This document shows, in pieces, positions 31,860-56,907 of a stretch of DNA of 64,000 nt (the stretch's first letter is position 1; every line of letters starts with the position of its first letter). Source of the DNA: Acidobacteriota bacterium (GTDB lineage: Bacteria > Acidobacteriota > Holophagae > Holophagales > Holophagaceae); contig JACPUT010000001.1 of the NCBI GenBank assembly GCA_016192145.1, forward strand, positions 1 through 64,000, written 5' to 3'. The position numbers and the translations under genes were made by a program. The notes beneath the pieces were generated by a model. It was given only the letters and a program-made list of their open reading frames with translations, searched no databases and was not told where the DNA came from.

Positions 31860-32570
31860 TCAGGCCTCCGGTGCCAGGTAGCGATCGTCGATCTGGGCCT
31901 GAGCGTAACTGGGTGGCGAGCCGATGTCCCGGTGATAGACGTCGTTGAGATAGGTCCCCATGCGACCCACGAGCGCGGGGATCAGCTCCGTGCTCAAGTC
32001 CGGTCTCGGCCCAAACCCCGCCAGGAGATCCAGCACCTCCGGCTCGAAGAGGTAGACGGCCCCATTGGCGAGGCGGCTGCGCGGCTGGCGGGGCTTCTCC
32101 TCGAAGGCACGCACGATCCCCCGCGCATCCACCTCAACGATGCCGCAGGATTCCGGCGCATCCGTCTCGAAGGTCAGCATCGTCGCGAGGCAGCCTCGCG
32201 GCCGCTGCTCATGGGTGTCGATGAAGGCTGCCACGTCGAAGCGGGATAGGTTGTCCGCGTGGATCACCATGCAGGTACCGCCCTCAAGGAAGGCGCGGTT
32301 GCCCAGCACGGTGCCACCCGTTCCCAGGAGCTCCGGCTCATGCACCGTTTGCACGGAGGCTCGGAGCGGATGGGCCGATAGGAAGGCCTCCACCTGGTCC
32401 GCGTGGTGATGCGTGTTCACGAGCAGGGGCCCCACGCCGGCCTCCGTCAGGAGCCGCAGCCAGTAGTCGAGGAGCGGGCGGCCCCGCACGGGCACGAGGC
32501 ACTTGGGCGTGCGATCCGTGAGTGGTCGCAGGCGCGTGCCCAGGCCCGCCGCCAACAGGAGGCCCCTCAT
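31860..32570 (-). CDS. Sugar-1-phosphate nucleotidyltransferase (HddC/GMP-like)
   Basis: A 236-residue nucleotidyltransferase with the N-terminal loop LLLAAGLGTRLRPLTDRTPK and the LVPVRGRPLLDYW segment. The metal-site HADN lies near residue 105 and EKPRQP near 160. Length and motifs match the short mannose/heptose-1-phosphate guanylyltransferases (HddC type) rather than longer RmlA or GalU. Next to a GmhA-like isomerase and an HldE-like protein in the same operon, activation of a heptose-1-phosphate is plausible, but the sugar and nucleotide cannot be read from sequence. GGGAGGG lies upstream of the ATG at 32570. Confidence 0.82.
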   Translation of the reverse strand: MRGLLLAAGLGTRLRPLTDRTPKCLVPVRGRPLLDYWLRLLTEAGVGPLLVNTHHHADQVEAFLSAHPLRASVQTVHEPELLGTGGTVLGNRAFLEGGTCMVIHADNLSRFDVAAFIDTHEQRPRGCLATMLTFETDAPESCGIVEVDARGIVRAFEEKPRQPRSRLANGAVYLFEPEVLDLLAGFGPRPDLSTELIPALVGRMGTYLNDVYHRDIGSPPSYAQAQIDDRYLAPEA

Positions 32571-32595: not shown

Positions 32596-34092
32596 TCAAT
32601 GCAGGACCTCCCGGGCGAGCTCCACGTGGGTGAGGGGCACGTTGCCCAGGCGCCCCACCTGGCAGGCGGCGGCGACGGAGCCCAGGTAAGAGGCTTCCCA
32701 GATGTCGGCGCCCACGGCGAGGCCCATGGCCGCACAAGTGAGGAAGGAATCCCCGGCCCCGGCTGGATCCTTGGGAGCCAAGTTTAGGGCCGGCAGACGG
32801 TCCGTCGGCCACTTCTTCGCCTCGTCGAGGCCGGCCTGGATGAGTACCCCCTCCGCCCCGAGGGTGATCACGACATTCTCCGCCCGGGATTTCGCGCGCA
32901 GCTTGTCCGCCAGCACCACGAGGCCCGAATCGAAGTCCTGCAGGGCGAGGCGCGCCTCCCGTTCCGTGGGCGTCACGAGCTTCATCCCCTTGAACCGGGA
33001 AACGTCGCCCATCTGCGAGGAGGACTGGCTGTCCGCGGCCATGAGGACGCCGCGCTTGTTGCAGGCGGTCTGGATGCCCTGGATGAGGGACTGGGGCAGG
33101 CAGCCGTAATTGAAGTCCGCGAAGAGGAGGAGGTCCACGTCCCCCAACACGGCCTTCACGTCCGCCAGGATCCGATCCCGGATCGCCACGGGGATGTCGT
33201 GCTGGCGCAGGTGGCTCACGCGCAACAGCGTTTTTTGGGTGGCCCGGAAGCGCTGCTTCAGCGTGGTTGGGCGGCTGTCGTCCTCGAAGCCGTGGAAGTC
33301 GATGTGGAAGGCCTCCATGCTCTCCCGCACGAAACCCGCCGTGTCGTCGCGCCCAAGCACCGAGAGGAAGTGAACCTGTTTGCCCAGGCTCCTCGCATGG
33401 GCCGCCACGATGCCCGCGCCCCCCACGAAGCGTTCCTGCAAGATGGGCGTCACCACGATGGTGGGGTCCTCCTGGGACATACCCAGGGCGTCGCAGGTGA
33501 TGTACTCGTCCACGATCGTGTCACCCAGGACGCAGACCCGCAGATCCTTCATGCGCTCGAGGATGTCCAGGGCCCGCTCGGAACCGACGCCGTGTCGGGC
33601 GAGGTAATCCTTGGGTTTGCGGATGGTGGTGAGGTTCATCTCCTGGAATTCCTGCCGCATGAGGTCCACGGAGGAGAAGGAGATGTCGCCGGAGCCGAAG
33701 AGCAGTTTTCCACCGTAGCCCGCCACCACCTCCGTCTCATCGTTGACGCCCTGCTCGTGCTCGGCCCCCTTCACGACGAGATCCGGCCGCAGGGCGCTGA
33801 TGAAGCGGGTGGGCTCGTCCCGGAGCACGAAGGCGTGATCCACCCAGTGGATGGCCTGCACGCCCTCAAGGCGCAGCTCTTCCGCCAGATAGGCGCCGCT
33901 GGAGCCGCCGCCCAGGATGCCCACCACGAGGAAGTCGCCGCACTCCCGGGCGAAGCGCAGGAGGCGCAGGTGGCCCGGATGGAGGATGTTGAAATTGCCG
34001 GAGACGAAGACGAGGCGCTGCCCAGGTACGGTGGAGACCCGGATGGCTCGGATGGCCTCCTCGCTGGTGGGATGCAGGGCGGTGCCAGTCAT
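32596..34092 (-). CDS. HldE-like bifunctional protein with reversed domain order (cytidylyltransferase-type domain then PfkB kinase)
   Basis: A 498-residue fusion. Residues 25-165 form a nucleotidyltransferase of the HIGH superfamily (VFVSGNFNILHPGHLRLL; the H-x-G-H is HPGH). Residues 185-498 form a PfkB/ribokinase-type kinase with VLGDTIVDEY, FVGGAGIVAAHARSLG, PTEREARLA and the catalytic DPAGAGDSFLT. In E. coli HldE the kinase comes first, so the order is inverted here. HldE phosphorylates heptose-7-phosphate at O-1 and adenylylates heptose-1-phosphate; similar chemistry is expected, perhaps on another sugar. The start overlaps the stop of the upstream methyltransferase gene (ATGA). Confidence 0.85.
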   Translation of the reverse strand: MTGTALHPTSEEAIRAIRVSTVPGQRLVFVSGNFNILHPGHLRLLRFARECGDFLVVGILGGGSSGAYLAEELRLEGVQAIHWVDHAFVLRDEPTRFISALRPDLVVKGAEHEQGVNDETEVVAGYGGKLLFGSGDISFSSVDLMRQEFQEMNLTTIRKPKDYLARHGVGSERALDILERMKDLRVCVLGDTIVDEYITCDALGMSQEDPTIVVTPILQERFVGGAGIVAAHARSLGKQVHFLSVLGRDDTAGFVRESMEAFHIDFHGFEDDSRPTTLKQRFRATQKTLLRVSHLRQHDIPVAIRDRILADVKAVLGDVDLLLFADFNYGCLPQSLIQGIQTACNKRGVLMAADSQSSSQMGDVSRFKGMKLVTPTEREARLALQDFDSGLVVLADKLRAKSRAENVVITLGAEGVLIQAGLDEAKKWPTDRLPALNLAPKDPAGAGDSFLTCAAMGLAVGADIWEASYLGSVAAACQVGRLGNVPLTHVELAREVLH

Positions 34093-36608: not shown

Positions 36609-37786
36609 TGGTCCGCCGCCGGAAGGGCCAGGGCGCTGGCGGGGAAGATCGAGCGGAAGACCCCGCCCCCCTCCAGGAAGGCCCGGTGCCGATCCAGCAC
36701 CTTCGCCTCATTGAGGGGGTTGAGGCTCAGGAGGCAGGTGGCGATGCCTTCGTCCACCAGTGCCGACGTGGGCCGGATGGGCCGGTGGGAGCCTGGCATG
36801 AAGAGGCCGATGCGGTGGGGGTCGTCGTCCACCACGCAGGCGATGCGATCCCCCAGCTCCATGAGGTTGAGGAAGGTGCACGCCAGATGCCCGCCACCCA
36901 GGAGGGCGATGGGGCCGGGCGCCGCCTCCAGCCACCGGTGGAGGCGGGCTCGGGCCGCGCCCAGCCCCGCGAGGTAGGCGCGCAGCTCAGGCCCGGGGCC
37001 TTGGGCGGGGCCCGCCTCCGGTTCCGCCGCCGTGGCCACCACCGTGAGGGAGTTCTCCAGGACGTAGGGGTAGTTCCGCTGGGCCACCACCCGGAAGCCG
37101 TGGCGGCGCAGCGTCGCGCCGAAGGTCTCCGGCGTGAAGTAGACGAGGTGCTCCTCCCACAGGGGGCTGTAGTCCCCGGTGGCGAACATCGTCGTGGCGT
37201 CCGGCACCTCGAACACGGCGTAGCCCCCCGGGGAGAGCAGCCCGCGCAGGGCGGCCAGGAAGCCCGCCAGATCGTGGGCGTGCTCCAGGATATGGCGCAC
37301 GAGGAGGAGCTCCACGGGCCCCTTCCGGGCCACGAGGGCCTTCGCCCGGGCGGGATCGAGCCGCGCCTGCACCTGCTCCACCTCCGCCCGGGAACCAGGG
37401 AGGTCCAGCTCCGAGGGGGTGAGGCTCCAGGCCTGCGTCACACCCCGACGCACGAGGCGGTGCAGGGTGGTGTCGTCCTTGTAGGTCACGCCCCCCACCC
37501 GGCTCTGGGGGCCGATGCCGGGCAGGCCCAGCAGCGACTCCACCAGGTCGTCGAGGTGCCCTTCCGGTTCGTTGTAGGTGATCCAGTCGAAGGGCGACTT
37601 GATCTCCCCGGCTGGAATGGGGTTCAGCAACTGGGGCAGGCCGCAGCGGGCGCAGACGCCGAGCGTGAGCGCGTAGCGCCGCTCTCGCGCCTCCGGGTCG
37701 GTGAGGAAGCGGTTGCAGATGGGATGCAGGCCCGCCTCCAGGCGCTCGGCGAGGAAGGGCCCCCCGCAGGCCCGGCAGGCACTCAT
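36605..37786 (-). CDS. Methyltransferase-like protein with zinc-binding N-terminus and altered SAM motif
   Basis: A 393-residue relative of the sugar C-methyltransferases. It has zinc ligands CRACGG near residue 4 and CARCGLPQL near 45. A methyltransferase-like core follows (LLVRHILEHAHDLAGFLAAL near 160, VFEVPDATTMFATGDYS near 190, then WEEHLVYFTPETF) and a C-terminal Rossmann-like part (IALLGGGHLACTFLNLMELG). The usual SAM motif I (EIGSNDGTLL in the enzyme at 34089-35345) is replaced by RVGGVTYKDDTTL near residue 95. It may be a non-methylating paralogue or bind a different cofactor. Its start overlaps the stop of the dehydrogenase gene (ATGA). Confidence 0.78.
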   Translation of the reverse strand: MSACRACGGPFLAERLEAGLHPICNRFLTDPEARERRYALTLGVCARCGLPQLLNPIPAGEIKSPFDWITYNEPEGHLDDLVESLLGLPGIGPQSRVGGVTYKDDTTLHRLVRRGVTQAWSLTPSELDLPGSRAEVEQVQARLDPARAKALVARKGPVELLLVRHILEHAHDLAGFLAALRGLLSPGGYAVFEVPDATTMFATGDYSPLWEEHLVYFTPETFGATLRRHGFRVVAQRNYPYVLENSLTVVATAAEPEAGPAQGPGPELRAYLAGLGAARARLHRWLEAAPGPIALLGGGHLACTFLNLMELGDRIACVVDDDPHRIGLFMPGSHRPIRPTSALVDEGIATCLLSLNPLNEAKVLDRHRAFLEGGGVFRSIFPASALALPAADQ

Positions 37787-38850
37787 GGGCGCGCCCCGGC
37801 CCGGAGATCCACGAGGCAGCGCCCGGCGATGGCGCCGGAGCGGAGGCCGTCCAGGGCCTCGTTGATGCGCGCGAGGGGCGTCGTGTGCGTGAGCAGGGGC
37901 GCCAGGGCCAGCTGGCCGGCTTCGTGGAGGCGGAGGTAGCGGGGGATGTCCTCCGTGGGGTCCGTCTCGCCGCCGTGGGAGCCCGTGAGCACCTTGCCGA
38001 AGTGGAGGGGCAGCGAGGGGATGGCGATGGGGTGGCCCTTCGCCGGCACGCCGACGAGGACGGTGCGCCCCCGGGGCTTCGTGAGCTCGTAGCCCAGCTG
38101 GATCATCTCCGGCAGGCCCGTGTTGTCGATGACGACGTCGGCACCCGCGGAGCCCACGATGCCACGCAGGGCCTCCGCGAGGTGTGCCGTGCGGCCGTTG
38201 AGCACGTGGGTGGCGCCCATGACCCGGGCCAGCTCCAGGCGGTTGTCGAAGAGGTCCACCCCCACGATGGGATGGGCCGAGGTGAGGGCCGCCCCCTGGA
38301 TCATGTTCAGTCCCACCCCCCCCGCGCCGAGCACGATGAGGGACTCCCCCATGCGGAGCCGGGCGTTGTTCGAGATGGTGCCCAGCCCCGTGGTGACGGC
38401 GCAGCCGAAGAGCGCGGCGATCCTCGGGTCGAGACTGGCGGGCACGGCCGTCACGCGGTTCTCGCTGACGATGGCGCACTCGTTGAAAGTCGTCACCCAA
38501 CCGGCGTTCAGGGGTCGCCCCTGCCAGGTGTACCGGGCTGGCTCCCCCTCCAGGCCCGCCCCTTTCATCCAATGGAGCACGACGGCATCGCCAGCCTTCA
38601 CCTGGCGCACGCCCTCGCCCACGGCGAGCACGCGGCCGGAGCCCTCATGCCCCAGGAGGTGGGGGAGGTGGGCGTCGGGCCCCTTCACGCCGGCGATCTC
38701 GCCCAACTGCGAGCCGCAGATGCCGCTGTAGTCCAGGCGAACCAGCACCTGCCCGAAGTGCAGGGTCTCCGGGAGGCCCACCTCCGCCACCGTCAGCGGC
38801 GCCCGTTGCTCGGTGAGGATGGCGGCCTGCATGGTGCGGGGGAGGGGCAT
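37783..38850 (-). CDS. Zinc-dependent medium-chain dehydrogenase
   Basis: A 355-residue MDR enzyme. Likely catalytic zinc ligands are the cysteine of SGICGSQLGE near residue 48, GHEGSG near 74 and the cysteine of ALFGCAVTTGLG near 160. The Rossmann motif is LGAGGVGLNMIQGA near 184. The lobe that normally carries four structural-zinc cysteines contains none (HWMKGAGLEGEPARYTWQGR), so only one zinc is expected. The family with this lobe recurs in surface-glycan loci; the substrate is probably a sugar nucleotide hydroxyl. AAAGGG precedes the ATG at 38850. Confidence 0.86.
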   Translation of the reverse strand: MPLPRTMQAAILTEQRAPLTVAEVGLPETLHFGQVLVRLDYSGICGSQLGEIAGVKGPDAHLPHLLGHEGSGRVLAVGEGVRQVKAGDAVVLHWMKGAGLEGEPARYTWQGRPLNAGWVTTFNECAIVSENRVTAVPASLDPRIAALFGCAVTTGLGTISNNARLRMGESLIVLGAGGVGLNMIQGAALTSAHPIVGVDLFDNRLELARVMGATHVLNGRTAHLAEALRGIVGSAGADVVIDNTGLPEMIQLGYELTKPRGRTVLVGVPAKGHPIAIPSLPLHFGKVLTGSHGGETDPTEDIPRYLRLHEAGQLALAPLLTHTTPLARINEALDGLRSGAIAGRCLVDLRAGARP

Positions 38851-38864: not shown

Positions 38865-39527
38865 TCACTCGAAGAAGATGAAGCCATGATCGCCCGTGTA
38901 GCCCGTCTGGCGGAACCACCAGGCCCACTCCTCCGGGGTATTGAAGGCCTCGCAGGTGAGCTGCCAGTAAAGCAGGTTCGCCTTCTCCACCTCGTTGCGG
39001 TAGGACTCCACGCAGAGGAACTTGCCGCCCCGGCCCACCCGCTCCAGCTCCCGCAGGGCCGCGTCCAGCTCGTAGCAGGGCAGGTTGTGGAGGGTGTTGA
39101 TGGAGAGGACGAAGTCGAAGCTGCGATCCGGGTAGGGCAGCCGGTCCGCCCGGCCCTCCGTGAGGAAGGGGCGCACCTCCTCCTTGGCGTGGGCAAGGGC
39201 GTAGGCGGAGACGTCCAGGCCCGCCACCTCCACGCCCGGCACCACCTGGGTGAACTCGTAGAGGAGGAAGGCCTTCCCGCAACCCACGTCGAGGATGCGA
39301 TCTCCGGCCTTCAGGCCGTAGTGCGCCGCCATGCGCTCGGCCACGATGCGCCAGCGACCGTCGTAGCGGAACCCGCCGTAGCCCACCTTCCGGTCCCCGT
39401 CCCAGTAATCCCGGTCGAAGCGCTTGGCGATGGTGGCCGCCTCGGCCTTGGGGATCTCGTTGACCCGGCCCAGGTAGTCCCGGGTCGTCTGCTTGTGCAC
39501 GAGGGAGATGAAGTCGAGGTGGCTCAT
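38865..39527 (-). CDS. SAM-dependent methyltransferase
   Basis: A 220-residue class I methyltransferase with motif I ILDVGCGKAFLLYEF near residue 78, GLDVSAYAL as the acidic strand 2, and FDFVLSINTLHNLP near 140. N-terminal segment KRFDRDYWDGDRKVGYGGFRYDGRW resembles that of surface-glycan methyltransferases. Probable target is a sugar residue or sugar nucleotide. Its start overlaps the kinase gene stop (ATGA). The dehydrogenase gene follows after a 14-base gap. Confidence 0.85.
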   Translation of the reverse strand: MSHLDFISLVHKQTTRDYLGRVNEIPKAEAATIAKRFDRDYWDGDRKVGYGGFRYDGRWRIVAERMAAHYGLKAGDRILDVGCGKAFLLYEFTQVVPGVEVAGLDVSAYALAHAKEEVRPFLTEGRADRLPYPDRSFDFVLSINTLHNLPCYELDAALRELERVGRGGKFLCVESYRNEVEKANLLYWQLTCEAFNTPEEWAWWFRQTGYTGDHGFIFFE

Positions 39528-40513
39528 GGTTCCGATGGGGCGTGCAGCAGGGCACGGGCCTGGGCGAGTTGAAGGGCCTTGGCTGCCACGGTATCCGGTC
39601 GGGCGAAGGAGCGACGGGCCAGATCCACGGGAAGGAAGGGGTTGAGGAGGATGCAGCACCATTTGAGCCGGTAGAGGGGAAAGAGGCTGTGGATCCGCGC
39701 CCGGGTCGCCCCGGGCTCGGGCCCCAGCTCGGCGACCCCCTGGGCGAACGTCGTGAAGTGGCTGAGTGGCACGGGCACGGCCACCTGGCAGAAGAAATCG
39801 CAGACGAGCTTGGCGGGATCGTCCCACCCCGCGTACTCGAAATCCAGGAAGGCGTACCTGCCCGACTCCGAGCGCAGCGCGTTGTGGAAGCCGAAGTCCG
39901 AGGGCGAGATCACCCGCTCGCCGGGCGGCAGGGGGGTCTCCGAGGCGCCGTCGAAGGTACGTCGGAGGGCCTCCCAGGCGGGCCGCAGCTCCTCCCCTAC
40001 GAAGGCCTGTGCCTCCCAGTCCACCGCCGTGGTGCCCTCCATCCCTTCGAGGCGGGTCATGCGACCCTCCAGCATCCGGACGTGCTCCTCCTGGGAGAAG
40101 CAGGCCTCCGAGGCCGCCGGCAGGGCACTCGCAGCCCTGGAATCCCTTCCCCCTTGCAGGGCCCGAAGGAAGGCCAGGGCCTGGGCGATGGCATCGCCAT
40201 CAATCCCTTCTGAAGTCACTCGCTGCCCAGGCTGGAACGCATAGAGCCCCACGCCCTGGGAGTCGTCGCGGCCCAGGGGCCGGGGGAGGGCCCGGAGTCC
40301 GGACTCCCACGCGTAGGTGCAGAGGCGGAACTCCGCATCGAGGCGGTCGCGGGGATCCGCGGGGTGACGGAAGTAGTGCTTGAGCACGGCGGGGCCCGCC
40401 GCGGAATCCACGCGGTAGAGGCGGTTGTTGCCTCCACCGGGGAGCCTCGTGAGCCGGGCCTCGGTCACCGCCAGCAGGCGCGCCGCCGTCGCCGCCAGGA
40501 GTTCCTCCGTCAT
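39524..40513 (-). CDS. APH-fold phosphotransferase (sugar or choline kinase-like)
   Basis: A 329-residue protein kinase-like fold enzyme of the aminoglycoside phosphotransferase superfamily. The nucleotide loop is RLPGGGNNRLYRV near residue 23 and the invariant lysine is in AVLKHYF near 43. The catalytic loop is ISPSDFGFHNAL near 215 (Asp and Asn kept, the usual HGD histidine replaced by Ser). The metal-binding loop is FLDFEYAGWDDPAK. The substrate is not aminoglycosides; in this operon a sugar or an alcohol side chain is likely. It is coupled on both sides by ATGA overlaps, with the HAD gene before it. Confidence 0.8.
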   Translation of the reverse strand: MTEELLAATAARLLAVTEARLTRLPGGGNNRLYRVDSAAGPAVLKHYFRHPADPRDRLDAEFRLCTYAWESGLRALPRPLGRDDSQGVGLYAFQPGQRVTSEGIDGDAIAQALAFLRALQGGRDSRAASALPAASEACFSQEEHVRMLEGRMTRLEGMEGTTAVDWEAQAFVGEELRPAWEALRRTFDGASETPLPPGERVISPSDFGFHNALRSESGRYAFLDFEYAGWDDPAKLVCDFFCQVAVPVPLSHFTTFAQGVAELGPEPGATRARIHSLFPLYRLKWCCILLNPFLPVDLARRSFARPDTVAAKALQLAQARALLHAPSEP

Positions 40514-41124
40514 GGCCGCTCCCCTGCCATGAAGCCCGCCACGGCCCCCCAGGTAGGCAGGGAACAGAGGTCCCCCCCCCTCGCGCCGTCGCCGCCGAAC
40601 CAGAGGCGCCGCGTGGAAGCGGGAAAAGCCGGAGCCCGGAGGATCTCCGGAAGGTCGTCCAGGAAGTGCGTGCAGCCGGCCTCGGCGATGGCGGCGAGCT
40701 TGCCTTCCTTCGTCTCGCTGAAGGAGACCCGCGACCGGGAGAGGCCCACTCCCGCCGGGGAGAAGACGCCGACGAAGTCGAGCCAGTCCAGGGCGGCCGC
40801 GTGGAGGTCCCAGGCGGGGCCGCGGTAGGGGTGCCGGGTCTTGTGGCTGATGATCCAGACGGGGATGCCTTCGCGCACCCAGGCCCCCATCGTCTCCAGG
40901 GCGCCGGGGAAGGCTTCCGCCTCCCGCAGGCGTCGGCCATAGACCTCGCCCTGCAGCAGGGTCCACTCGTCTTCCCGGCCGATGGCGCGGAGGTGATCCC
41001 GCACGGCCTCCTTGGTCACGGCGAGGGTGGCGGGAATGAGCCCCTGCTCCAGTGCCACGCGGTGGAAGACGACGTCGTAGCGGAGGATCGTGTTGTCGAG
41101 ATCCACACCGATGCAGAGGGTCAT
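40510..41124 (-). CDS. HAD superfamily phosphatase
   Basis: A 204-residue haloacid-dehalogenase hydrolase. Nucleophile motif I is GVDLDNTILRYD at residue 6 (D-x-D-x-T), motif II SHKTRHPYRG near 95, and motif IV HFLDDLPEIL near 155. A helical cap lies between motifs I and II. It probably removes a phosphate from a sugar intermediate; it is not obviously GmhB by sequence. It sits between the transketolase pair and the APH-fold kinase with ATGA overlaps on both sides. Confidence 0.83.
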   Translation of the reverse strand: MTLCIGVDLDNTILRYDVVFHRVALEQGLIPATLAVTKEAVRDHLRAIGREDEWTLLQGEVYGRRLREAEAFPGALETMGAWVREGIPVWIISHKTRHPYRGPAWDLHAAALDWLDFVGVFSPAGVGLSRSRVSFSETKEGKLAAIAEAGCTHFLDDLPEILRAPAFPASTRRLWFGGDGARGGDLCSLPTWGAVAGFMAGERP

Positions 41125-42044
41125 CGGGCCAGGGCCTCGCCCAGCCGGGCGGCGATGCGCTCCGCGGTGAGGCCGTACTGGGCCCGGGCGTACGCCTGGG
41201 TGCCAACCGTCTCGAGATAGCGATCCTCCGTGCCGAAGCGGAGCAGGCGGTAGTCCACGTCCCCCTGGTCCACGACCCACTCCGCCACGGCGCTCCCCAG
41301 GCCGCCGATGAGGCTGTGCTCCTCCACGGTGGCCACCACGGGCATGCTGCCCACGAGGGACCGCAGCAGGTCCCCATCCAGGGGCTTCACCGTGGGCACG
41401 CTCTCCACGCGGATGGAGCGGCCCTCGGCGGCGAGGCGCTCCGCCACCTCCAGGGCGAGGGCCACGGCATTGCCCGTGGCGAGGAGGCAGGCCTCCGTTC
41501 CTGGGCGCATCGTGATGGCCTTGCCGATTCGGAAGTCCGGTTCGCCGACGTGCAGGATCGGTTCCCCCTTCTTGCCCAGGCGCAGGTAGACGGGGCCCTC
41601 GTGCTGCAGGGCGGCCCGGAGGGCGAGCTTCACTTCCGTGGGGTCGCAGGGGCAGAGGATCGTGAGGTTGGGCAGGGTGCGCAGGAGGCCGATGTCCTCG
41701 CAGGAGTGGTGGGTGGGTCCCAGCTCCGTGTAGGAGAGACCGGAACCCGTGCCGACGACCACCACGGGGAGGTTGTGGTAGCAGAGGTCCACCCGGATCT
41801 GTTCGAGGCAGCGCACGGTGGCGAAGGCGGTGATGGTGTAGGTGAGGGGCCGGAAGCCCATGGTGGCGAGGCCCGCGGCCACGCCCGTCATGTTGGCCTC
41901 GGCCACGCCGCAGTTGTGGAAGCGACCCGGGGCGGCCGCCTTGAGGCCGTCGAAGAGCTTGTTGCCGATGTCGCCGGAGAGGAGGACGATGCGCTCGTCC
42001 TCCATGGCGAGCCGGGTGAGTTCCTGGGCGAAGGTGTTCCTCAT
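41121..42044 (-). CDS. Transketolase C-terminal subunit (two-subunit type)
   Basis: A 307-residue protein with the pyrimidine-binding and C-terminal domains of transketolase: LSGDIGNKLFDGL, HNCGVAEANMTGVAAGLA near residue 45 (Glu for TPP activation), GSGLSYTELGPTHHSCEDIG near 100 and the C-terminal VEEHSLIGGLGSAVAEW. It pairs with the N-terminal subunit encoded just upstream. Two-subunit transketolases occur as second copies in secondary and surface-sugar pathways; here a C2 transfer to or from a sugar is inferred. ATGA overlaps link both neighbours. Confidence 0.92.
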   Translation of the reverse strand: MRNTFAQELTRLAMEDERIVLLSGDIGNKLFDGLKAAAPGRFHNCGVAEANMTGVAAGLATMGFRPLTYTITAFATVRCLEQIRVDLCYHNLPVVVVGTGSGLSYTELGPTHHSCEDIGLLRTLPNLTILCPCDPTEVKLALRAALQHEGPVYLRLGKKGEPILHVGEPDFRIGKAITMRPGTEACLLATGNAVALALEVAERLAAEGRSIRVESVPTVKPLDGDLLRSLVGSMPVVATVEEHSLIGGLGSAVAEWVVDQGDVDYRLLRFGTEDRYLETVGTQAYARAQYGLTAERIAARLGEALAR

Positions 42045-42871
42045 GGGAGCAGCCCCAGTTCCCGGTGGGCGGCCGCGATCTCATCCGGGCTCGGCGTACG
42101 GTAGTGCCAGTTGTTGTCGTCCTCCATGAAGGAGACGCCCTTGCCCTTCACCGTGTGGGCGATGATCGCCAGGGGCCGCCCCTGGCCCATGCGATCCCGG
42201 CTGAGGGCGGCGGCGAGGGCCTCCAGATCGTGGCCATCCAGCTCGACCGTCTCCCAGCCGAAGGCCCGCCACTTCTCCGCCAAGGGGGCCAGGGCGAGCA
42301 CCTCCTCGCTGCGCCCCGTGGCCTGCCACTTATTGAAGTCAACGATCGCCGTGAGCGACTCCAGCTGCTGGACCGCGCCCATGAGGGCCGCCTCCCACAC
42401 GGAGCCCTCGTTGCACTCGCCGTCGCTGAGGAGGACGAAGGTGCGGTTGGGGATCCCCTTCAGCCGGGCGCCCAGGGCCATGCCCACGCCCATGGGCAGG
42501 CCGTGGCCCAGGGAGCCCGTGGCCGCCTCCACGCCGGGAACACCGTGGGCGGGGGGATGCTCGCCGAAGAGGCTGCCGTCATCGCCGTAGCCCTCCAGCC
42601 AGGCCTCGGGGAAGAAACCCCGCCAGGCGAGCACCTGGAAGAGGGCCGGGGCCGCGTGGCCCTTGCTGAGGATGAAGCGGTCCCGCTCCGGGGCCTTCGG
42701 GGCCGCTGGATCGATGCGCAGGATGCGCCCGTAGAGCACGGCGAGCATGTCCAGGCAGGAGAGGCAGGAGCCCAGGTGGGGCACCTGGGCCCGGCCCGAG
42801 ACCTCGATGACCCTGCCCCGCAGGCGGGCGGCCTCGCGGGCCAGGGTGTCCAGGGAGGCGGTGGGGGTCAT
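42041..42871 (-). CDS. Transketolase N-terminal subunit (two-subunit type)
   Basis: A 276-residue TPP-binding half of transketolase. HLGSCLSCLDMLAVLY near residue 31, FILSKGHAAPALFQVLA near 68, GSLGHGLPMGVGMALG near 115 and the TPP/metal motif LLSDGECNEGSVWEAAL to VDFNKWQATG (about 145-185) are all visible. It overlaps the C-terminal subunit gene by ATGA and the epimerase gene before it by ATGA, so both halves are made together. Confidence 0.92.
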   Translation of the reverse strand: MTPTASLDTLAREAARLRGRVIEVSGRAQVPHLGSCLSCLDMLAVLYGRILRIDPAAPKAPERDRFILSKGHAAPALFQVLAWRGFFPEAWLEGYGDDGSLFGEHPPAHGVPGVEAATGSLGHGLPMGVGMALGARLKGIPNRTFVLLSDGECNEGSVWEAALMGAVQQLESLTAIVDFNKWQATGRSEEVLALAPLAEKWRAFGWETVELDGHDLEALAAALSRDRMGQGRPLAIIAHTVKGKGVSFMEDDNNWHYRTPSPDEIAAAHRELGLLP

Positions 42872-43806
42872 AGGGCGAGCTGCTTCATGGTGGCCACGTT
42901 GTAGCACTGGTCGCTCACCTGCAGACTCCCCGCGCGGTAGGCCGCCACCACTTCCTCGATGGCATCGGCCACCCGGAACCGGGGGGCGAAGCCCGTGGCG
43001 AGGAGCTTGTCGGAGTTCAGGCGGTAGGAGCGGGGATCGTTGGAGGGCTGGACCTCGATCTCCGCGGGCACGACGGCCGTGACCATCCGCGCGATGGCGA
43101 GGATGGAGAGGTTCTCGAAGCCCGCGTTGAAGATGCCGGGGGCCCGATCGCCCAGGGCGAGGAAATGCTGGTACACGCGCACCATGTCCTTGAGGGTGAT
43201 GTTGGGCCGCACCTGGGCCCCGCCCAGGACCGTGATGTGGCCCTTCGTCAGGGCCTGGATGGTGAGCATGTTCACGGAGAGGTCCAGCCGCATCCGGGGG
43301 GAGACGCCACATACCGTGGCGGGGCGGATGCACTGGAGGGTGATGCGATCCCGGTAGCTGAGGAGGATGCGCTCGCTCACCATCTTCGTCTTGTTGTAGT
43401 CGGAGATGGGCAGGAGGGGCAGCTCCTCCGTGACTTGCGGTTCCTCGCTCACGCCGTACACGCTTCCCGAGCTGGCGTAGATGAACTGGGGCACGCGGGC
43501 CGCGATGGCCGCCTCCACGAGGCCCATGGTGGCGAGGGCGTTCACCTCCCAGGAGAGTTTGGGATTGAGGTCGCTGCAGGGATCGTTGGCCACATTGGCC
43601 AGGTGCAGCACCGCATCCTGGCTCGCGAAGGGCAGGGAGCCCGCGTCCCGCACGTCAGCCTGGATCACCGTGAGTGCCGGGTGGGGCTGCAGGTGGTTGC
43701 CGAACCACTGGGCGTCCACCACCGTCACCCGGTGGCCGTCGGCCAGCAGGGCCTCCGTGAGCCTGCTGCCGATGTAGCCGCACCCGCCGGTCAATAGGAT
43801 CTTCAT
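42868..43806 (-). CDS. NAD-dependent sugar epimerase/dehydratase
   Basis: A 312-residue extended SDR. NAD motif GGCGYIGSRL lies at residue 7, ASSGSVYG near 115 and catalytic Y-x3-K as YNKTKMVSE near 140. Substrate-binding segment PRSYRLNSDKL lies near 260. It probably epimerises or oxidises a nucleotide sugar. I choose the ATG at 43806 (GAGG six bases upstream); an ATG at 43818 overlapping the preceding stop as ATGA is an alternative that adds four residues. Its stop overlaps the transketolase N-subunit start. Confidence 0.88.
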   Translation of the reverse strand: MKILLTGGCGYIGSRLTEALLADGHRVTVVDAQWFGNHLQPHPALTVIQADVRDAGSLPFASQDAVLHLANVANDPCSDLNPKLSWEVNALATMGLVEAAIAARVPQFIYASSGSVYGVSEEPQVTEELPLLPISDYNKTKMVSERILLSYRDRITLQCIRPATVCGVSPRMRLDLSVNMLTIQALTKGHITVLGGAQVRPNITLKDMVRVYQHFLALGDRAPGIFNAGFENLSILAIARMVTAVVPAEIEVQPSNDPRSYRLNSDKLLATGFAPRFRVADAIEEVVAAYRAGSLQVSDQCYNVATMKQLAL

Positions 43807-43814
43807 GGGGGGCC

Positions 43815-44813
43815 TCATGGCTTGTGAACGTAGTCGAAGGGCTGACGGAGGATCTCATCCCGGTGGGTGGTGACCCAGTCCAGGGTCTCCTGGAGGCCCT
43901 GCTCCAGGGAGAGGTGGGCCTCCCAGCCCAGCTCCGCCTTGGCCTTGCGGCTGTCCAGGAGGTAGGCCGAGTCCTTGCCCGGGCGCTCGGGAGCCACGTC
44001 CACGGCCTCGGCGAAGGGGATGCCCATGCGCTCCGCGAGGCGCTCCACGAGGGACCGCACGGTGATGTTCTCCGGCGTGGAGAGGTGGAAGATGTCGCCG
44101 GGCCGGCCCTGGCGCATGGCCCGGAGGGTGCCCTCGGCCACGTCCCGGATGTGGATGAAGGAGCGCACGGAGACGCCGCCCCCGTGCAGCTGCAGGCGCC
44201 GGCCCGTGAGGAAGAAGAGGATCGTGCGGGGGATGATGCGGTAGAGCTGCTGGCCCGGGCCATAGACGTTGGCGGCCCGCGTGAACACGACGGGGAAGCC
44301 GTGGGTCCGCACGTAGGTCATGAGGCTTAAGTCCGCCGCCGCCCGGGAGACGGCGTAAGGCGTGCTGGGGTCGTAGACGGTGCGCTCCGCGATGAGGCCC
44401 TCGCAGCTGCCGTAGACCTCTGGCGTGGAGACGTGCAGGTACTTCTTGAGGAAGTCGCAGCGCCGCAGGCCCTCGTGGAGGCGGACGTTGGCCACGAGGT
44501 TCGTCTGCATCCAATGATCCGGATTGGCCCAGCTCTCGGCCACCATGCTCTGGGCCGCGAAGTTCACCACGTAGTCGGGCTTGAAGTCGTGGACGAGCTC
44601 CAGGATGGCGGGTAGATCCGTGTTCAGGTCCAGCTGGTGGAAGGCGAAGCTCCCGGTGCGGGGAGCTCCCTCCCAGGCATAGGACCGGAAGACGGGGTGC
44701 ACCTCCGGAGAGCGGCTGACCCCCACGACCGCGCAGCCCTCGGCCCGGGCCCGCGCCACGAAGTGGGTGCCGGAGAACGAGTTGCTGCCGATGATGAGGA
44801 TCTTGTCGGGCAT
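43815..44813 (-). CDS. NAD-dependent sugar dehydratase/epimerase, GDP-mannose 4,6-dehydratase-like
   Basis: A 332-residue extended SDR with NAD motif IGSNSFSGTHFV near residue 7 (altered spacing), NFAAQSMVAESW near 80, STPEVYGSCEG near 115, then YAVSRAAAD where the catalytic lysine of Y-x3-K is Arg. C-terminal SFIHIRDVAEG and RPGKDSAYLLDSRKAKAELGW are typical of 4,6-dehydratases. Lys-to-Arg at the active site may alter activity or reflect a natural family variant. The gene is coupled to the following epimerase and lies 14 bases after the SIS isomerase gene. Confidence 0.82.
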   Translation of the reverse strand: MPDKILIIGSNSFSGTHFVARARAEGCAVVGVSRSPEVHPVFRSYAWEGAPRTGSFAFHQLDLNTDLPAILELVHDFKPDYVVNFAAQSMVAESWANPDHWMQTNLVANVRLHEGLRRCDFLKKYLHVSTPEVYGSCEGLIAERTVYDPSTPYAVSRAAADLSLMTYVRTHGFPVVFTRAANVYGPGQQLYRIIPRTILFFLTGRRLQLHGGGVSVRSFIHIRDVAEGTLRAMRQGRPGDIFHLSTPENITVRSLVERLAERMGIPFAEAVDVAPERPGKDSAYLLDSRKAKAELGWEAHLSLEQGLQETLDWVTTHRDEILRQPFDYVHKP

Positions 44814-44827: not shown

Positions 44828-45397
44828 TCAAACGTTGGCCACGAGGGGAGGGTGGGCCTTGAGCCACTGCATGAGCATGTGCCCGATGGTGAGCTGGGCG
44901 TCCTCGCAGATCTGCATGTCATCGATGGCGACGTGGATGGCGTGGTCCGCAAGCTGGAGGCACTTGCCACCGGAGTAGCCCAGGATGGCGTAAGAACCCA
45001 GGCCCATGCGCTTGCCCGTCTCCAGGGCCCGCACGATGTTGGGGGAGTTCCCGCTGCCAGATAGGACGATGAGGACGTCTCCCGGCCGGGCCAGCACTTC
45101 CAGTTGCTTGGAGAAGATGGCCTCATAGGAGACGTCGTTGGCCAGGCAGGTCATTACGGCCTGGTTGGCGGAGAGGGCCTGCACCCGCATGCCCCCGAGG
45201 CCCGGGGAAATGCCGTAGAAGAGGTCGTTGGCGAGGTGAATGGCGTTGGCGGCGCTTCCGCCGTTACCGCAGATGAACACCTGGCGGCCCTCCACCCAGG
45301 CCTGACGCAGCACGTGGCCGAGCCGCTGCACCTCGTCCAGATTCAGGGCGTCGAGGGCCTTCCGGCTGTTGGCGAGGTACTGCTCGAAAGGTCCCAT
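44828..45397 (-). CDS. SIS domain sugar-phosphate isomerase, phosphoheptose isomerase (GmhA)-like
   Basis: A 189-residue SIS protein close in length to GmhA (about 192). The phosphate-binding CGNGGSAANAIHLANDLF near residue 42, the LSGSGNSPNIVRAL loop near 115 and the terminal TIGHML with the conserved histidine are present. The glutamate four residues after the first active-site histidine in GmhA is Asp here (HLAND). GmhA converts sedoheptulose-7-phosphate to heptose-7-phosphate; the same or a related ketose-aldose step is inferred. AAGGAG precedes the ATG at 45397. Confidence 0.83.
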   Translation of the reverse strand: MGPFEQYLANSRKALDALNLDEVQRLGHVLRQAWVEGRQVFICGNGGSAANAIHLANDLFYGISPGLGGMRVQALSANQAVMTCLANDVSYEAIFSKQLEVLARPGDVLIVLSGSGNSPNIVRALETGKRMGLGSYAILGYSGGKCLQLADHAIHVAIDDMQICEDAQLTIGHMLMQWLKAHPPLVANV

Positions 45398-45444: not shown

Positions 45445-47475
45445 TCAGGATGGGCCGGGGGCCACGCTGCGGTAGATGAGCTTGAGGTTCGAGCGCTGCA
45501 GCAGGCGGCCCATGCCCGTGGGTGTGTTCGCGTAGAGCTTGATCTGGTTCGCGATGTGACGCTTCTGGCCCTCGCTGTGGAAGAAGCGCCACTCGCCCGC
45601 CTGGGTGGCTAGGGGGAGGGTGTCGGGGTCCACCTTGAACCCCGCCGCCCGGATGGCCTCGAAATCGAACCGGAAGGACGCGTACCGTTCCCCCTCGGTG
45701 TCGGTGACGCAGTCCTCCTTGCGGAGCAGCGTGTAGGTCTTCAATTCCAGCAGGTAGGCCTCCACCCGGGGGGTGAGGCGCCCATTCACCTCCAATGTGG
45801 CGCGGATGGCTGTGAAGAGGAGGTCGCATAGGTCCCGGAACTCCCCGAGGAGGAGGGTCTTGTGCACGAGCAGTTCGTTGATGCCCAACTCACCGTCGAT
45901 GTAGCGCCCCACCACCTCCGGCGTGAGGACGAAACCCTTGGCCTCCTCGAAGGTGGCGAAGAGGTCCGAACCCGTCTGCTGGAGAAAGCCGTCGATGATG
46001 GCCGCGATTCGCCCCGTGCGCAGCTCCGGGTGGCCCTTCGTGTAGAGGAGGCAGTCGTAAACCGATACTTCCAGGGCCCGGCAAAGGGCGAAGACTTCCT
46101 CGAAGAGGGCGTTGTTGTAAAAGGTCTCCACCAGGAGGTTCATCTCCCGGCACTCCAGGTAGTCCGCGAAGCTCAGGGTGGCGTTGCCCACGATGATCTC
46201 CTCGATCTCCGAAACGGGGGTCGGCTCCCCCATGAGGTCGTAGATCCCCACGCAGCCAGGGATCACGCGGAATTGGGTGGCCAAACCGTACTGCGCCCGG
46301 GTGGGGCCCGAGGCCATCTCCGTGCCGCGGAGCAGCATGGCCTGGAACATCCGCATGTGGGTGACCCCCTGCTCCACGCCGAAGCGGAGGGACTCGAAGT
46401 GCTTGTCCCGGGAATCCCCGGGCAGGCCGAGGATGATCTCTGAGTGGGTCTTGCTGTTTTCCATGGTGTTGCCGTAGGTGACCAGATCCCGGTAGGCCTC
46501 GCGGCTGATGTTCTGGCGTTTGATGGCCTTGAGCACGTCCGGATCCGTGGACTGGAGGGAGGCGCCCAAGGTCCAAGCCCCATTGAGAATGCGGGCCACC
46601 TCGATGGTGCGCTCGGGGCGGTTCTTTCCGGCGGAGGCCGAGATGAGGAGGGGCCAGCCCGTCTCCCGCTTCACCTGGGCGATCTCGTCCGCCGTGCGCA
46701 GGTCCTCCGTGTACATGGCGAAATTGAGGTCCGTGATGATGAGCTCGTCCACGTTTTTCACGTGGCTGGCGATGTAGCGGATCTCCGCCCGGGTGCGCTC
46801 GGGGTCGAAGCGGGCGATCTTGTTCTTGGAAGTCAGCCCGTCCGCGCAAAAGGTGCAGGAAAAGGGACAGCCCCGGGTCGTCTCCAGCAGCGGCTGCAGG
46901 GGCTGGTCGAAGAAGGGGTCCAGCAGGCCTGTGAGGTAGGGGGAGGGGATACGGTTCACGTCGACGATGCGGGCGATCTCCCCGGAGATGAGGGCGCCCT
47001 GCTCCAAGTAGGTCGTGTTCGCCATGCGCCGGCCTTCGGATTTGAGGCGCCTGGCGTCGAAGCCCACCTCCTCCAGGTTTTGCACCAGGTCCACGAGACC
47101 CAGCTCGCCCTCCAGCTCGATGTAGAAGTCCATGGCGGGGCGGCCCGCGAGGAACTCCGCCTTCTCCGAGGCGAGGGTGGGGAAGTTGGGACCGCCAAAG
47201 ACGGTGACCACCCGGGGATCCAGGGCCTTGGCCCGGCGGGCGAAGGCGTAAGCCAGCTCGAAGTTCCAGCTGTAGTTGGAGAAGCAGAGGACCGTGGGCC
47301 GTTCGCGGGTGAGCACCTCGCTTAGCTCCTCCGGGAACTTGCACAGGCGGTAGGTAAAGGCGTCGCCCAGCTCCTGACGGGCGTAGGCCATGACGAAGCT
47401 CACGCCCAGGGGGAAGGTGGGGGCCCCGATGCCCTGGGCCGTGTGGGTGAGATCGGCGAAGACGAGGCTCCGCAT
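45445..47475 (-). CDS. Radical SAM protein with B12-binding-type N-terminus
   Basis: A 676-residue protein. Residues 15-150 have a B12-binding-domain-like Rossmann pattern (PTVLCFSNYSWNFELA, VVTVFGGPNFP). The radical SAM core follows with CPFSCTFC (C-x3-C-x2-C) near residue 202 and DLNFAMYTED and LQSTDPDVLKAIKRQN strands. An extended C-terminal domain of about 250 residues is unlike common families. No histidine of a D-x-H-x-x-G cobalamin motif is evident, so B12 may not be bound base-off. Possible roles are C-methylation or rearrangement of a sugar. GGAAGGAGGACG precedes the ATG. Confidence 0.85.
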   Translation of the reverse strand: MRSLVFADLTHTAQGIGAPTFPLGVSFVMAYARQELGDAFTYRLCKFPEELSEVLTRERPTVLCFSNYSWNFELAYAFARRAKALDPRVVTVFGGPNFPTLASEKAEFLAGRPAMDFYIELEGELGLVDLVQNLEEVGFDARRLKSEGRRMANTTYLEQGALISGEIARIVDVNRIPSPYLTGLLDPFFDQPLQPLLETTRGCPFSCTFCADGLTSKNKIARFDPERTRAEIRYIASHVKNVDELIITDLNFAMYTEDLRTADEIAQVKRETGWPLLISASAGKNRPERTIEVARILNGAWTLGASLQSTDPDVLKAIKRQNISREAYRDLVTYGNTMENSKTHSEIILGLPGDSRDKHFESLRFGVEQGVTHMRMFQAMLLRGTEMASGPTRAQYGLATQFRVIPGCVGIYDLMGEPTPVSEIEEIIVGNATLSFADYLECREMNLLVETFYNNALFEEVFALCRALEVSVYDCLLYTKGHPELRTGRIAAIIDGFLQQTGSDLFATFEEAKGFVLTPEVVGRYIDGELGINELLVHKTLLLGEFRDLCDLLFTAIRATLEVNGRLTPRVEAYLLELKTYTLLRKEDCVTDTEGERYASFRFDFEAIRAAGFKVDPDTLPLATQAGEWRFFHSEGQKRHIANQIKLYANTPTGMGRLLQRSNLKLIYRSVAPGPS

Positions 47476-49147: not shown

Positions 49148-52100
49148 TCACGGCCTCCCCATCGAAGTCGTCCCGCTTTGAGCAAGTTCCGGGCCCGAGC
49201 CCGGGAGGGCCTCCAACCGGGCCTGGCACCACGCCCGCAGCCCCGCCCGACGCACGGATGCGCACGAAGGGCCCCTGAACAGGTCCACCGTCACGCCGGG
49301 CACGTGCAGGATGGGCCCTCGGGCCGCCAGACGGGCGACGAAGGCGCGGTCCTCCAGCAGGGGAAGTTCCTCATCGAAGCGCTCTCCCAGTTCCCGGTGG
49401 TGGATCAGGGCCGAGAGGGGCGGGGTTTCCACCGGCTCCGGAATGGGGTCCGAACCAACCTGGAGGGCCGTGTCCGCATAACCGACCCGGTGACCGGAGC
49501 CCGAGAGGGCGACCGTTAGCCGCGCGAGGTGGTCGGGTCGCCAAAGGTCGTCGTCGTCGAGGTAGGCGATCCACCGGCCCCGGGCCTGGGCGAGGCCCCG
49601 GTTGCGGGCGGCGCCTTGGCCCCGGGGGTGCTCCAGCTCGATGAGGTGGACGGGCAGCCCCGCGAGCGCAGCCGCAGCGACGACGGGCTCGGCCTGGCCC
49701 CCGCCATCGTCCACGACGATCACCTCCAGGGGGGGCAAGGTCTGCTGGCGGATGGATTCCAAGGCGCGGGCAAGGGCCTCGGGGCGCCGGTAGGTGGGCA
49801 CGATGACAGAGACGTTCGGGGCCGCGACGGCAGCCATGGGCTGCCCCCAAGAGGGCTCTGGGCTCGCCGGGGGTGGGACCTCCGTCCAGCCGCCGAGCCG
49901 CGACCGGGCGTCCATGAGGCGCTGCCCGTTGGGACCCACGAGGTTCCAGGCCGCACGCGATCCGGGGATCCACTGGAGGGTGGTGCAGGGGCGCAGGAGC
50001 TCCACCCAGTCCTCGGCCCGATCCACGAGGGCCACGTCCGGGAAGGCCTCTCGCCCCGTGCGTTCCACGACTTCCAGCACTCGGGCCTGGGCCTCCTCGA
50101 CGGAGAGACCCCCAGCGGCCTTCGGGTCCAGTGCCAGGGCCAGGCAAACGGGATCGCCGGGGGCGAAGGCCTCCAGATAGGCGAGGAGAACTTCCACCCA
50201 GGCCGCGCCCGTCCAAACGGGCTCGTGGAGGAACATCTCCCGCAGGCCTGGGCGGGGCGCCGCCTCGGCGGCGAGGAGATCTGCCACTTTGGCCGCGATG
50301 CGCTGTCGGCACTCGGGGAAGAGGTCCCGCCTCTCGAAGGTGATGTTGGCGCCGCTGCTGCGCCACCGCACCTCCGCCGTGGCTTTGGGGATGTGGAGGA
50401 AGTCCCAGCGCCGGGACAGGCGGATCCAGTACTCCCAATCCTCCAGCACGGGCAGGGACTCGTCGTGGGGCCCCACCGCCTCCCAGCAGGCGCGGGCGTG
50501 CATCACGTTGTTCACCGGCGTGAGGTTGTCGCGCAGGAAGTGCTCCCGGTCGAAGGCGTTGGACATGGCCAGTTCCCGGCTGAGCACCACCCATTCGCCC
50601 TTCCGGAGTTCTTCCACGGCCCGCATGGAATCCGTGTAGGCCACCTGGGCACCGGTCCGTTCCAGCGCTTCGGTGAGCACCTGAAGGTGGTCCGGATAGT
50701 AGAGATCGTCGTCATCCAGGTACGCGATCCAGCGCCCCCGCGCCGCCCGGATCCCCGTGTTGCGGGAGCCCGCCTGCCCGCGGGGGCGCGGGTGTTGGAG
50801 GAGCGTGATTTCCAGGCCCTTGGCCCGGGCGGCCGCCACCACCGCCGCCGGGTCCCCGCCTCCGTCGTTGACGACCACCACCTCGAAGGAACGGAAGGTT
50901 TGCGGGGCCAGGGAGTCCAGGGCCCGGGCCAGGAACTCGGGCCGGTCCTTGGTGGGCATGATCACGGACACCGCGGGCGCCGGGCGGGGCGGAAGCACCT
51001 CCGCGGGCAGCACGGGGCGCAACAACCCGGTGAGGGCCCGATCGGCCATGAGCTGGAAGCCCCGCTCCCCCACCCGATGGCGGCGTTCCGGGTCACCCAC
51101 GGCGGAGCGGCAGGCTTCCACGAGCCCGTCGTAAGTGGCGAGGATCAACCCCTCCCGCAGGCTGGGCTCCACCTCGGTGGCGGCATGGCATTCGGCCACC
51201 ACGGCCTTGCGGTTGGCCAGCAGGTAGGACACGCGCACCAGCTCGAAGATGCTGCTGTCGAAGAAGTGGAGGTTGAGCACCACCTTGGATCGCGCGATGA
51301 GGGCGTCCCGCTCCGCGCCGTAGACGTTGAAGGCCCGGTGGACCTTGAGCCCCGCGGCCTGGAGCGCTTCCAGGATCTGGATGCGGCGGGGATTCGTGGA
51401 GCCGTAAAAGAGCACATCGATATCCTGCTCCTGCGCCTCCGGGATCCGGGTGAGCACCGGATCGTAGCCGATGGGCAGCAGCCGGGGCTCGCCCTGCATC
51501 CCGGCCTTGGCCAGGATCTCAAGGTTGCGGGCGCTGTAGTCCCAGATCTCCAGGGTCGCGGAGCGCCGCACGAGGCGCTCCCGCAACTCGCGGTTCCGCT
51601 CGTCCATCTGCTCCAGGTTGTAGAGGACGGTGCCCTTGGGCAGCTTGGCCAAGCCCTGCTCGTCCATCAGATGCCAGCCCAGGAGCACGTTCAGGGCCCC
51701 CGCCTTCAGTTCGTTCTCCGCCAGATCCGTCGGCACGCCCAGGGACTTCAGGGCCGACTCCAGGCTCTGGGCCACTTCCCGGAAGGCCTCGGAATGGGCA
51801 TAGCCTTCGGGCCGGATGAGGACGATGCGGACGGGGGTCCGCGCGGCGCTGATGGCGGGCTTCGGAGAGGCTGCGGGCCCTTCCACGGGTCGGGCTGCTT
51901 CCAGGGTGCGGCCCACCACGTTCACCAGATAGCGACGGAGTTCCCCGGAGATGCGGGTCTCACCCCCGGCCTCCAGACGGCGCAGCACCTCCTCCATCCG
52001 GAGCAGGGGATCCTGGGGGATGAACGGGGTCTGCGCCCCGGTACCCAGGCGGGCCCCCCACTCCTTCAAGAAACCGGGCACGTCGGACACCTGCGTGAAG

Positions 52101-56780: not shown

Positions 56781-56907
56781 GGGGCCCCTCCTGGGCCCCA
56801 CCCCTTCGGGGCCGTGCTTTGCTTGGTGGGCCTTCGCTCCATCGAACGGGCGCATTGCGCCCTCCCGCTCGCGGGGCTCGCGGAGATGGAGCCTCCCTGC
56901 TTCGGCC
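56781..56907. other. Intergenic segment with hairpins inside the polysaccharide operon
   Basis: This is the only gap above 100 bases within the long minus-strand operon. It contains GGGCGCA-T-TGCGCCC (56848-56862, a perfect 7-base-arm palindrome) and GGCCCC/GGGGCC arms around 56794-56814. It may attenuate or process the transcript between the dehydratase and epimerase genes. There is no U-tract or recognised riboswitch. Confidence 0.4.

Follow-up and report, generated by a model that had tools for sequence, protein, structure and literature searches.

The window, by which we mean the whole 64,000-nucleotide stretch of Acidobacteriota DNA analysed here, encodes a transketolase divided between two adjacent genes of a sugar operon, TKN and TKC. 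The sequences confirm that the pair is transketolase-like and belongs to a clade in which the catalytic residues are kept and the residues that recognise phosphorylated alpha-hydroxyaldehydes are replaced. The chances appear evenly balanced that TKN/TKC would transfer a hydroxyacetyl group to the ketone of a nucleotide-activated sugar, yielding a C-branched surface sugar. We infer this reaction, with its donor, acceptor and product, from the observed gene order, family, clade, pocket changes and conserved neighbourhood.

The split transketolase and its operon

Both proteins are intact halves on separate chains and carry transketolase family signatures: in profile searches TKN (276 aa) matches Transketolase_N at 127.9 bits, and TKC (307 aa) matches Transket_pyr at 119.5 bits and Transketolase_C at 81.9 bits. 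Among solved structures both come closest to the split transketolase of Carboxydothermus hydrogenoformans, TKN to one of its chains (6yak, E 6.9e-75) and TKC to the other (6yaj, E 1.7e-57), and that enzyme has the same two-chain architecture. ATGA stop/start overlaps join the SDR to TKN (42868-42871), TKN to TKC, and TKC to the HAD gene (41121-41124), and since they occur at all three junctions the four genes are probably translationally coupled; the gap between TKN and TKC is -4 nt in most of the 64 loci that have both halves. A preliminary description of this DNA had placed two ATGA-coupled transketolase halves at 41121-42871, and this is borne out by the sequence and by the profile and structure matches. 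The neighbours that it named are likewise present, namely a GmhA-like SIS isomerase, two NDP-sugar SDRs, a HAD protein, an APH-fold kinase and methyltransferases (Table 1).

Table 1. Genes of the sugar operon in the window, with the matches on which their descriptions rest
Feature	Coordinates	Strand	Matches and remarks
Sugar-1-phosphate nucleotidyltransferase	31860..32570	-	PF00483 121.8 bits
HldE-like, nucleotidyltransferase then PfkB kinase (reversed order)	32596..34092	-	TIGR02198, TIGR02199
Zinc-dependent (MDR) alcohol dehydrogenase (ADH), candidate branch reductase/oxidase	37783..38850	-	PF00107/PF08240
Class I SAM methyltransferase, well conserved in cassette	38865..39527	-	
APH-fold kinase, cassette type	39530..40513	-	PF01636 46.8 bits; model pLDDT 96.1
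HAD-superfamily phosphatase, cassette type	40510..41124	-	weak PF12710; AlphaFold model pLDDT 96.6
TKC, C-terminal half (Pyr + C domains)	41121..42044	-	PF02779/PF02780; PDB 6yaj
TKN, N-terminal (ThDP-pyrophosphate domain) half	42041..42871	-	PF00456; PDB 6yak chain AAA
Epi2, Cj1427-like NAD-dependent SDR, candidate NDP-(4-)keto-sugar maker	42868..43818	-	PDB 6vo6; ATGA overlap with TKN
RmlB/GMD-like SDR	43815..44813	-	STPEVYG and YxxxR replace usual motifs
SIS-domain GmhA-like isomerase	44828..45391	-	TIGR00441 116.7 bits

The SIS protein scores below the GmhA equivalog cut-off of 209.45 bits, and the HldE-like protein, with its domains in reversed order, falls below the cut-offs of both of its models (TIGR02198, 174.4 bits over 178-495; TIGR02199, 59.9 bits over 24-132), as does the separate nucleotidyltransferase for the HddC model NF049965 (62.4 bits). 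Fold searches, which for the HAD and APH models point to broad families only, place the HAD model nearest to deoxyribonucleotidases and phosphoglycolate phosphatase, and the APH model nearest to AmiN, corramycin phosphotransferase, and methylthioribose and choline kinases; the search of solved structures gave no match for the APH kinase. RmlB-type 4,6-dehydratases normally have Asp at the motif position where the RmlB-like SDR has Pro (STPEVYG), and dehydration by this protein is therefore doubtful.

The same genome (3.80 Mb, 98% complete) encodes a full-length transketolase (E 1.3e-145, 685-aa frame) and a DXS-like protein, both on contig C7. The possibility, raised in the preliminary description, that the pair is the genome's sole transketolase falls with this second, full-length enzyme, on account of which a housekeeping role in the pentose phosphate pathway is rejected. 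A second GmhA-like protein and a match to the kinase part of the HldE-like protein also lie on C7, with a match to the nucleotidyltransferase part on contig C1; because these exist elsewhere in the genome, the operon copies look like a dedicated second set.

The acceptor pocket and the clade

Pocket columns were read from an alignment against the genome's own full-length transketolase, using residue numbers that we take to be those of Escherichia coli TktA. The window pair retains the equivalents of the ThDP and catalytic residues H26, H66, H100, D155, N185, H261, E411 and H473. In transketolase the phosphate is bound by H461, R520 and nearby residues, and the acceptor's 2-hydroxyl by D469. 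These residues, with which the pentose phosphate enzyme recognises phosphorylated 2-hydroxyaldehydes, are not kept in the window, where TKC has G, L and K in place of H461, D469 and R520, and Ile at the position of F434. The pocket stretch reads GTGSGLSYTELGPTH in the window and ATHAGLTVGEDGASH, of the canonical type, in the Carboxydothermus enzyme. Residues of the H461/D469/R520 type normally also help to bind phosphorylated donors. Their loss could also fit an unphosphorylated aldehyde acceptor, which counts against the branching reading.

The altered pocket recurs in other split transketolases. Among 75 aligned rows with Gly at position 461 (the residue by which the rows were chosen), every row retains the equivalents of E411 and H473 and none has D469; at the position of R520, 64 rows have K and 11 have R, and the F434 position is Ile in 71. 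The canonical-pocket rows, many of them non-independent members of a single genus, keep H461, D469 and R520 in 34/34 (H and D define this set) and have Phe at 434 in 33/34. A quick maximum-likelihood tree was built from 104 rows, among them the window and a random draw of 14 subclade A and 9 subclade B cassette rows, with the misaligned locus L196 excluded. It places the 46 Gly-type rows in a single group (SH-aLRT 99) whose inner forks are partly resolved. Four members linked to rfbF and rfbG fall near the window clade in this tree (group support 90, drawn open). Altered pockets with Ser rather than Gly occur on one Rhizobium plasmid and one Streptomyces plasmid beside sugar kinases, in loci that look catabolic (the unannotated Streptomyces locus was read by eye). 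Streptomyces plasmid relatives were also considered as sugar-branching loci and set aside, their contexts being carrier-protein or sugar-kinase genes instead.

Conserved neighbourhoods and sister operons

The preliminary description proposed a search for the same neighbourhood elsewhere, and such a search recovers a conserved cassette (HldE-like, SIS, SDR, TKN, TKC, ADH, HAD, APH and methyltransferase genes) on at least 51 distinct contigs. Genome contigs were scanned with a methyltransferase alignment and the best 80 of 440 relatives were used as loci; among these 80, many of them on short contigs, TKC is present in 57, TKN in 53, HAD in 54, APH in 54, the HldE-like gene in 42, ADH in 44 and SIS in 17. 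Where the same best 80 of 440 extend 8 kb or more upstream and 5 kb or more downstream, TKN and TKC are found together in 31/43 loci, and TKN, TKC, HAD and APH in 28/43. About a quarter of these 43 loci are without the transketolase, so the methyltransferase is not absolutely tied to it, and one cassette found by way of its transketolase (L142) is without the methyltransferase.

The usual gene order is HldE-(SIS)-Epi2-(GMD)-TKN-TKC-(ADH)-HAD-APH-(GMD)-MT. At least 52 cassette loci were chosen for the presence of MT, HAD and both transketolase halves, and because of this preselection only the counts for ADH, Epi2, HldE, GMD and SIS are informative. Contig ends cut off many loci, and two loci that share the same TKC on contigs of equal length (L041 and L103) were both kept in the locus, pocket-row and Epi2-distance counts. 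Among the matches listed, ADH is present in 42 of the 58 clustered loci and SIS in 19, and HAD and APH form a single open frame in 10 of the 57 loci that have both. The contig titles name Verrucomicrobia, Planctomycetes, Alpha- and Gammaproteobacteria, Elusimicrobia, Acidobacteria, Chlamydiae, a cyanobacterium and others; the carriers are mostly metagenome-assembled genomes, whose binning, and hence phylum assignment, may err. Cultured carriers include Azospirillum halopraeferens DSM 3675 (L129) and Solidesulfovibrio carbinolicus DSM 3852 (L133). The gene set is widespread and apparently undescribed.

Within the phylum, a transketolase or DXS match was found in all 297 genomes searched, and among the matches listed for these genomes only the window and one other genome (G057) have a TKC above 50% identity, which suggests horizontal spread. 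Neighbourhoods were compared in 72 regions, 60 of them hand-picked around split-type TKCs (split-size frames, best E-values) and 12 others, some from genomes outside the 297. A marker of NDP-sugar synthesis (nucleotidyltransferase, extended SDR, DegT, RmlC or GT2) lies within 8 kb in 13 of the 32 regions that have neither H461 nor D469 and in none of the other 40 (Fisher p 4.9e-6). With a split chosen after the data had been seen, markers lie near 13 of the 18 Gly-type and 0 of the 54 other split transketolases (p 1.2e-10); L196, misaligned through a frame problem, was counted as without H and D in the former comparison and belongs to the 54 in the latter. Homologues of the cassette HAD show the same division (6/18 Gly-type regions, 0/54 of the rest). 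The five Gly-type regions that gave no marker count against the branching reading; four of them span less than 11 kb.

That the clade works on nucleotide sugars is supported most strongly by yersiniose-type operons and by a gene fusion. Genes for rfbF, rfbG, rfbH, an SDR, TKN and TKC co-occur in three loci (L137, L138 and L140), and a fourth (L150) has rfbF, rfbG, SDR, TKN and TKC with no rfbH match adjoining; the order on the Methylovirgula plasmid pHY1 is rfbF-rfbG-SDR-rfbH-TKN-TKC. All three rfbH proteins contain PAHHITMGEGG, in which His stands for the PLP lysine, where the PseC control reads PVKHITTGEGG, and we take this His to be a feature of 3-dehydrases. The rfbF/rfbG/rfbH/SDR set is presumably the yersiniose gene set, with the split transketolase standing in the place of YerE. 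In Paenibacillus cellulosilyticus an SDR and TKN form one fused protein of 635 aa, encoded beside rfbF-rfbG.

Likely acceptor, alternatives and precedents

The best PDB match of Epi2 is 6vo6 (E 2.9e-33 over residues 5-296; next structure 3e-22), whose record is named 'putative sugar-nucleotide epimerase/dehydratase' and which we take to be Cj1427. The two proteins are similar over their full length and share ATVxGxSPRMRLDL, and Epi2 carries the Tyr/Lys dyad in YNKTK, as expected of a Cj1427-type sequence; most cassette Epi2 proteins among the matches listed have the form G[YFV]SPRxR[LF]D. Cj1427 is described in the available text of PMC10680097 as a C4-dehydrogenase that converts GDP-D-glycero-manno-heptose to GDP-4-keto-heptose in vitro. 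Among the matches listed, the end of Epi2 lies no more than 300 nt upstream of TKN in 15/33 loci of subclade A, to which the window belongs, and no more than 4 kb upstream in 29/33; the corresponding figures for subclade B, in which L133 is counted, are 0/16 and 6/16. This distance in most of subclade B, like the missing Asp of the RmlB-like SDR, counts against branching.

Given a Cj1427-like Epi2 together with SIS, PfkB, HAD and nucleotidyltransferase genes, the likeliest acceptor here is an NDP-4-keto-heptose, which would lead to a branched nine-carbon sugar. NDP-heptose would be made by the SIS isomerase, PfkB kinase, HAD phosphatase and nucleotidyltransferase and oxidised at C4 by the Cj1427-like SDR. 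The two-subunit ThDP enzyme would then take a hydroxyacetyl group (a two-carbon ketol) from a ketose or hydroxypyruvate and add it to the ketone of the NDP-sugar, probably this NDP-4-keto-heptose, giving a tertiary-alcohol sugar for surface polysaccharide, which the ADH or an SDR and the methyltransferase would finish. With SIS in only 19/58 clustered loci among the matches listed, this source of heptose may be limited to part of the loci. A more tentative and somewhat doubtful extension is that the clade, across many phyla, would join hydroxyacetyl to NDP-4-keto-heptoses or, in the sister operons, to CDP-3,6-dideoxy-4-keto-hexoses, forming branched C9 and C8 sugars and adding a third enzymatic route to those of YerE and the E1-like enzymes.

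Other readings of the operon draw on some of the same genes. It is rather unlikely that the pair uses an aldehyde without a phosphate, which the ADH may supply, to form a long-chain ketose that the APH kinase would phosphorylate, the SIS protein isomerise, and the PfkB, HAD and nucleotidyltransferase proteins activate; lincomycin octose synthesis follows a comparable route with a transaldolase rather than a transketolase. This would account for the APH, HAD, SIS and HldE-like genes in one cassette and for the lost phosphate-site residues, and split transketolases beside LysW-type carrier genes (L134 and L135), which presumably use a carrier-bound aldehyde, fall near the clade in the quick tree. 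However, the scarcity of SIS among the clustered loci (19/58 of the matches listed) speaks against it, and the Cj1427-like SDR beside TKN and the sister rfbH-type operons are left unexplained. That the pair supplies the GmhA-like enzyme with sedoheptulose-7-phosphate, the alternative offered in the preliminary description and here set within a pathway to NDP-heptose, agrees with the SIS, HldE-like, HAD and nucleotidyltransferase genes of the operon but is improbable: the genome already has a full-length transketolase, the residues for phosphorylated aldehydes are replaced, and all 33 sampled split transketolases with a canonical pocket are without NDP-sugar markers within 8 kb. There is a slim chance that the pair makes a polysaccharide substituent that is not a sugar, in the form of a small ketol that the APH kinase would phosphorylate and the cytidylyltransferase-like domain activate; a choline-kinase-like fold among the APH matches and the CTP_transf_like domain fit this, and the SDR fusion and the NDP-sugar dehydratase neighbours of related members do not.

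The preliminary description had also likened the pair to AviB-type enzymes. AviB1/AviB2 of avilamycin biosynthesis is a two-component ThDP enzyme of the PDH-E1 type that is presumed to add a C2 unit to a sugar. A two-component ThDP enzyme inside a sugar operon would suit such an enzyme adding acetyl from pyruvate, but transketolase models far outscore E1 models for both halves (TKN 127.9 and 35.2 bits, TKC 172.2 and 52.5 bits) and the transketolase-type His residues are retained; membership of the E1 family is rejected on these scores, and this reading is very improbable. C2 branching of a surface sugar, in contrast, emerges better supported than the sedoheptulose reading by the pocket, the neighbourhood, the operons with the pair in the place of YerE, and the SDR-TKN fusion.

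A better precedent than AviB is the split-gene transketolase proposed, although unproven, for keto-sugar branching in miharamycin and amipurimycin (section 2.3 of PMC12247030, a 2025 review). That review gives 13 further candidates, all from Streptomycetes, and states that ketol-to-ketone addition is not yet characterised in vitro for any of the transketolases that it proposes. A candidate keto-sugar maker close by, one feature of a miharamycin-type system, is found in the window as the Cj1427-like SDR that overlaps TKN by ATGA. Compared by description with the same text, the miharamycin and amipurimycin enzymes belong to Streptomyces natural-product clusters, whereas the window type lies in surface-polysaccharide operons on contigs ascribed to many phyla, where it is accompanied by a Cj1427-like SDR and the HAD/APH/MT cassette. 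Counting against the branching reading, the review assigns branching of LPS sugars, in the text available, to YerE-like decarboxylases. The sister members with rfbF, rfbG, rfbH and SDR resemble the YerE/YerF system, in which a C2 branch is placed on a CDP-4-keto O-antigen sugar; by its description in the same portion of PMC12247030, YerE is set apart as a member of the decarboxylase family with pyruvate as donor, whereas the window has a two-subunit transketolase. PMC8533242, consulted for the order of the yersiniose genes, does not mention yerE in its available text. The Campylobacter pathways of GDP-heptose modification share with the window a homologue of their 4-dehydrogenase Cj1427, here directly upstream of TKN, but unlike the window operon they come with no mention of a transketolase in the available text of PMC10680097.

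If the branching reading is true, transketolases would be general formers of C-C bonds in bacterial surface-sugar synthesis, beyond central metabolism and antibiotic tailoring; the signature (Gly for His461, loss of Asp469) and the gene cassette would predict branched surface sugars from genomes, and many candidate transketolases that add ketols to ketones would be at hand. The use of split transketolases for surface polysaccharides across many phyla looks new, since in the open-licence literature, as far as its available text extends, no report of such a pathway, cassette or clade was found beyond PMC12247030 and PMC13390465. The available text of the latter mentions, descriptively, an EPS cluster of Actinoplanes in which MT accompanies TKN and TKC.

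Composition of the cassettes

Relatives of the HldE-like fusion of the window are carried by most of the cassettes, and a single reading frame encodes both the HAD phosphatase and the APH kinase in ten loci from other genomes or plasmids (L044, L051, L052, L054, L064, L066, L076, L084, L085 and L132); this fusion suggests that the two enzymes work in successive steps. An additional gene pair, coding for a dioxygenase-like protein (judged by eye) and a second, short protein, recurs in 10 of the 58 clustered loci, seven of which belong to subclade B.

The window operon containing the split transketolase genes also includes a radical SAM gene, and just 7 of the 80 loci of the cassette scan (the best 80 of 440 methyltransferase relatives) have a homologue of it. 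The UDP-GlcNAc 2-epimerase, polysaccharide-synthesis SDR and RmlD-like genes just upstream fit a surface polysaccharide locus.

Features of the window and of other loci
Feature	Locus	Position	Strand	Remarks
HldE-like fusion	window	32596-34092	-	domain order reversed: nucleotidyltransferase, then PfkB kinase
B12-binding radical SAM protein	window	45445-47475	-	KedN5-type C-methyltransferase-like; 156.7 bits, under cut-off
Single very long protein	window	49148-54112	-	~1650 aa; three GT2 glycosyltransferase stretches
UDP-GlcNAc 2-epimerase, polysaccharide-synthesis SDR and RmlD-like genes	window	55677-58862	-	just upstream
Extra gene pair (example)	L121	8409-9996		subclade B cassette
Split transketolase	L133	87-1855
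Split transketolase	L133	11021-12651

Split transketolases of other types

Split transketolases with Ser at position 461 (E. coli numbering) form a distinct group (L143, L144, L146, L152, L170 and L172), and a scan of 72 regions found no NDP-sugar markers within 8 kb of its members. Sugar kinases adjoin similar split transketolases on Rhizobium and Streptomyces plasmids, the Streptomyces locus having been read by eye.

Plasmid pDCAR1 of Solidesulfovibrio carbinolicus (L133) has two split transketolases in one cluster, one retaining His461 and Asp469 and the other of the Gly type, which adjoins the cassette methyltransferase and APH genes. The split transketolases of two Streptomyces plasmids (L134 and L135) retain His461, have Tyr in place of Asp469, and are accompanied by LysW, ArgC and kinase genes and a DegT aminotransferase, gene sets resembling amino-group-carrier pathways such as that of vazabitide.
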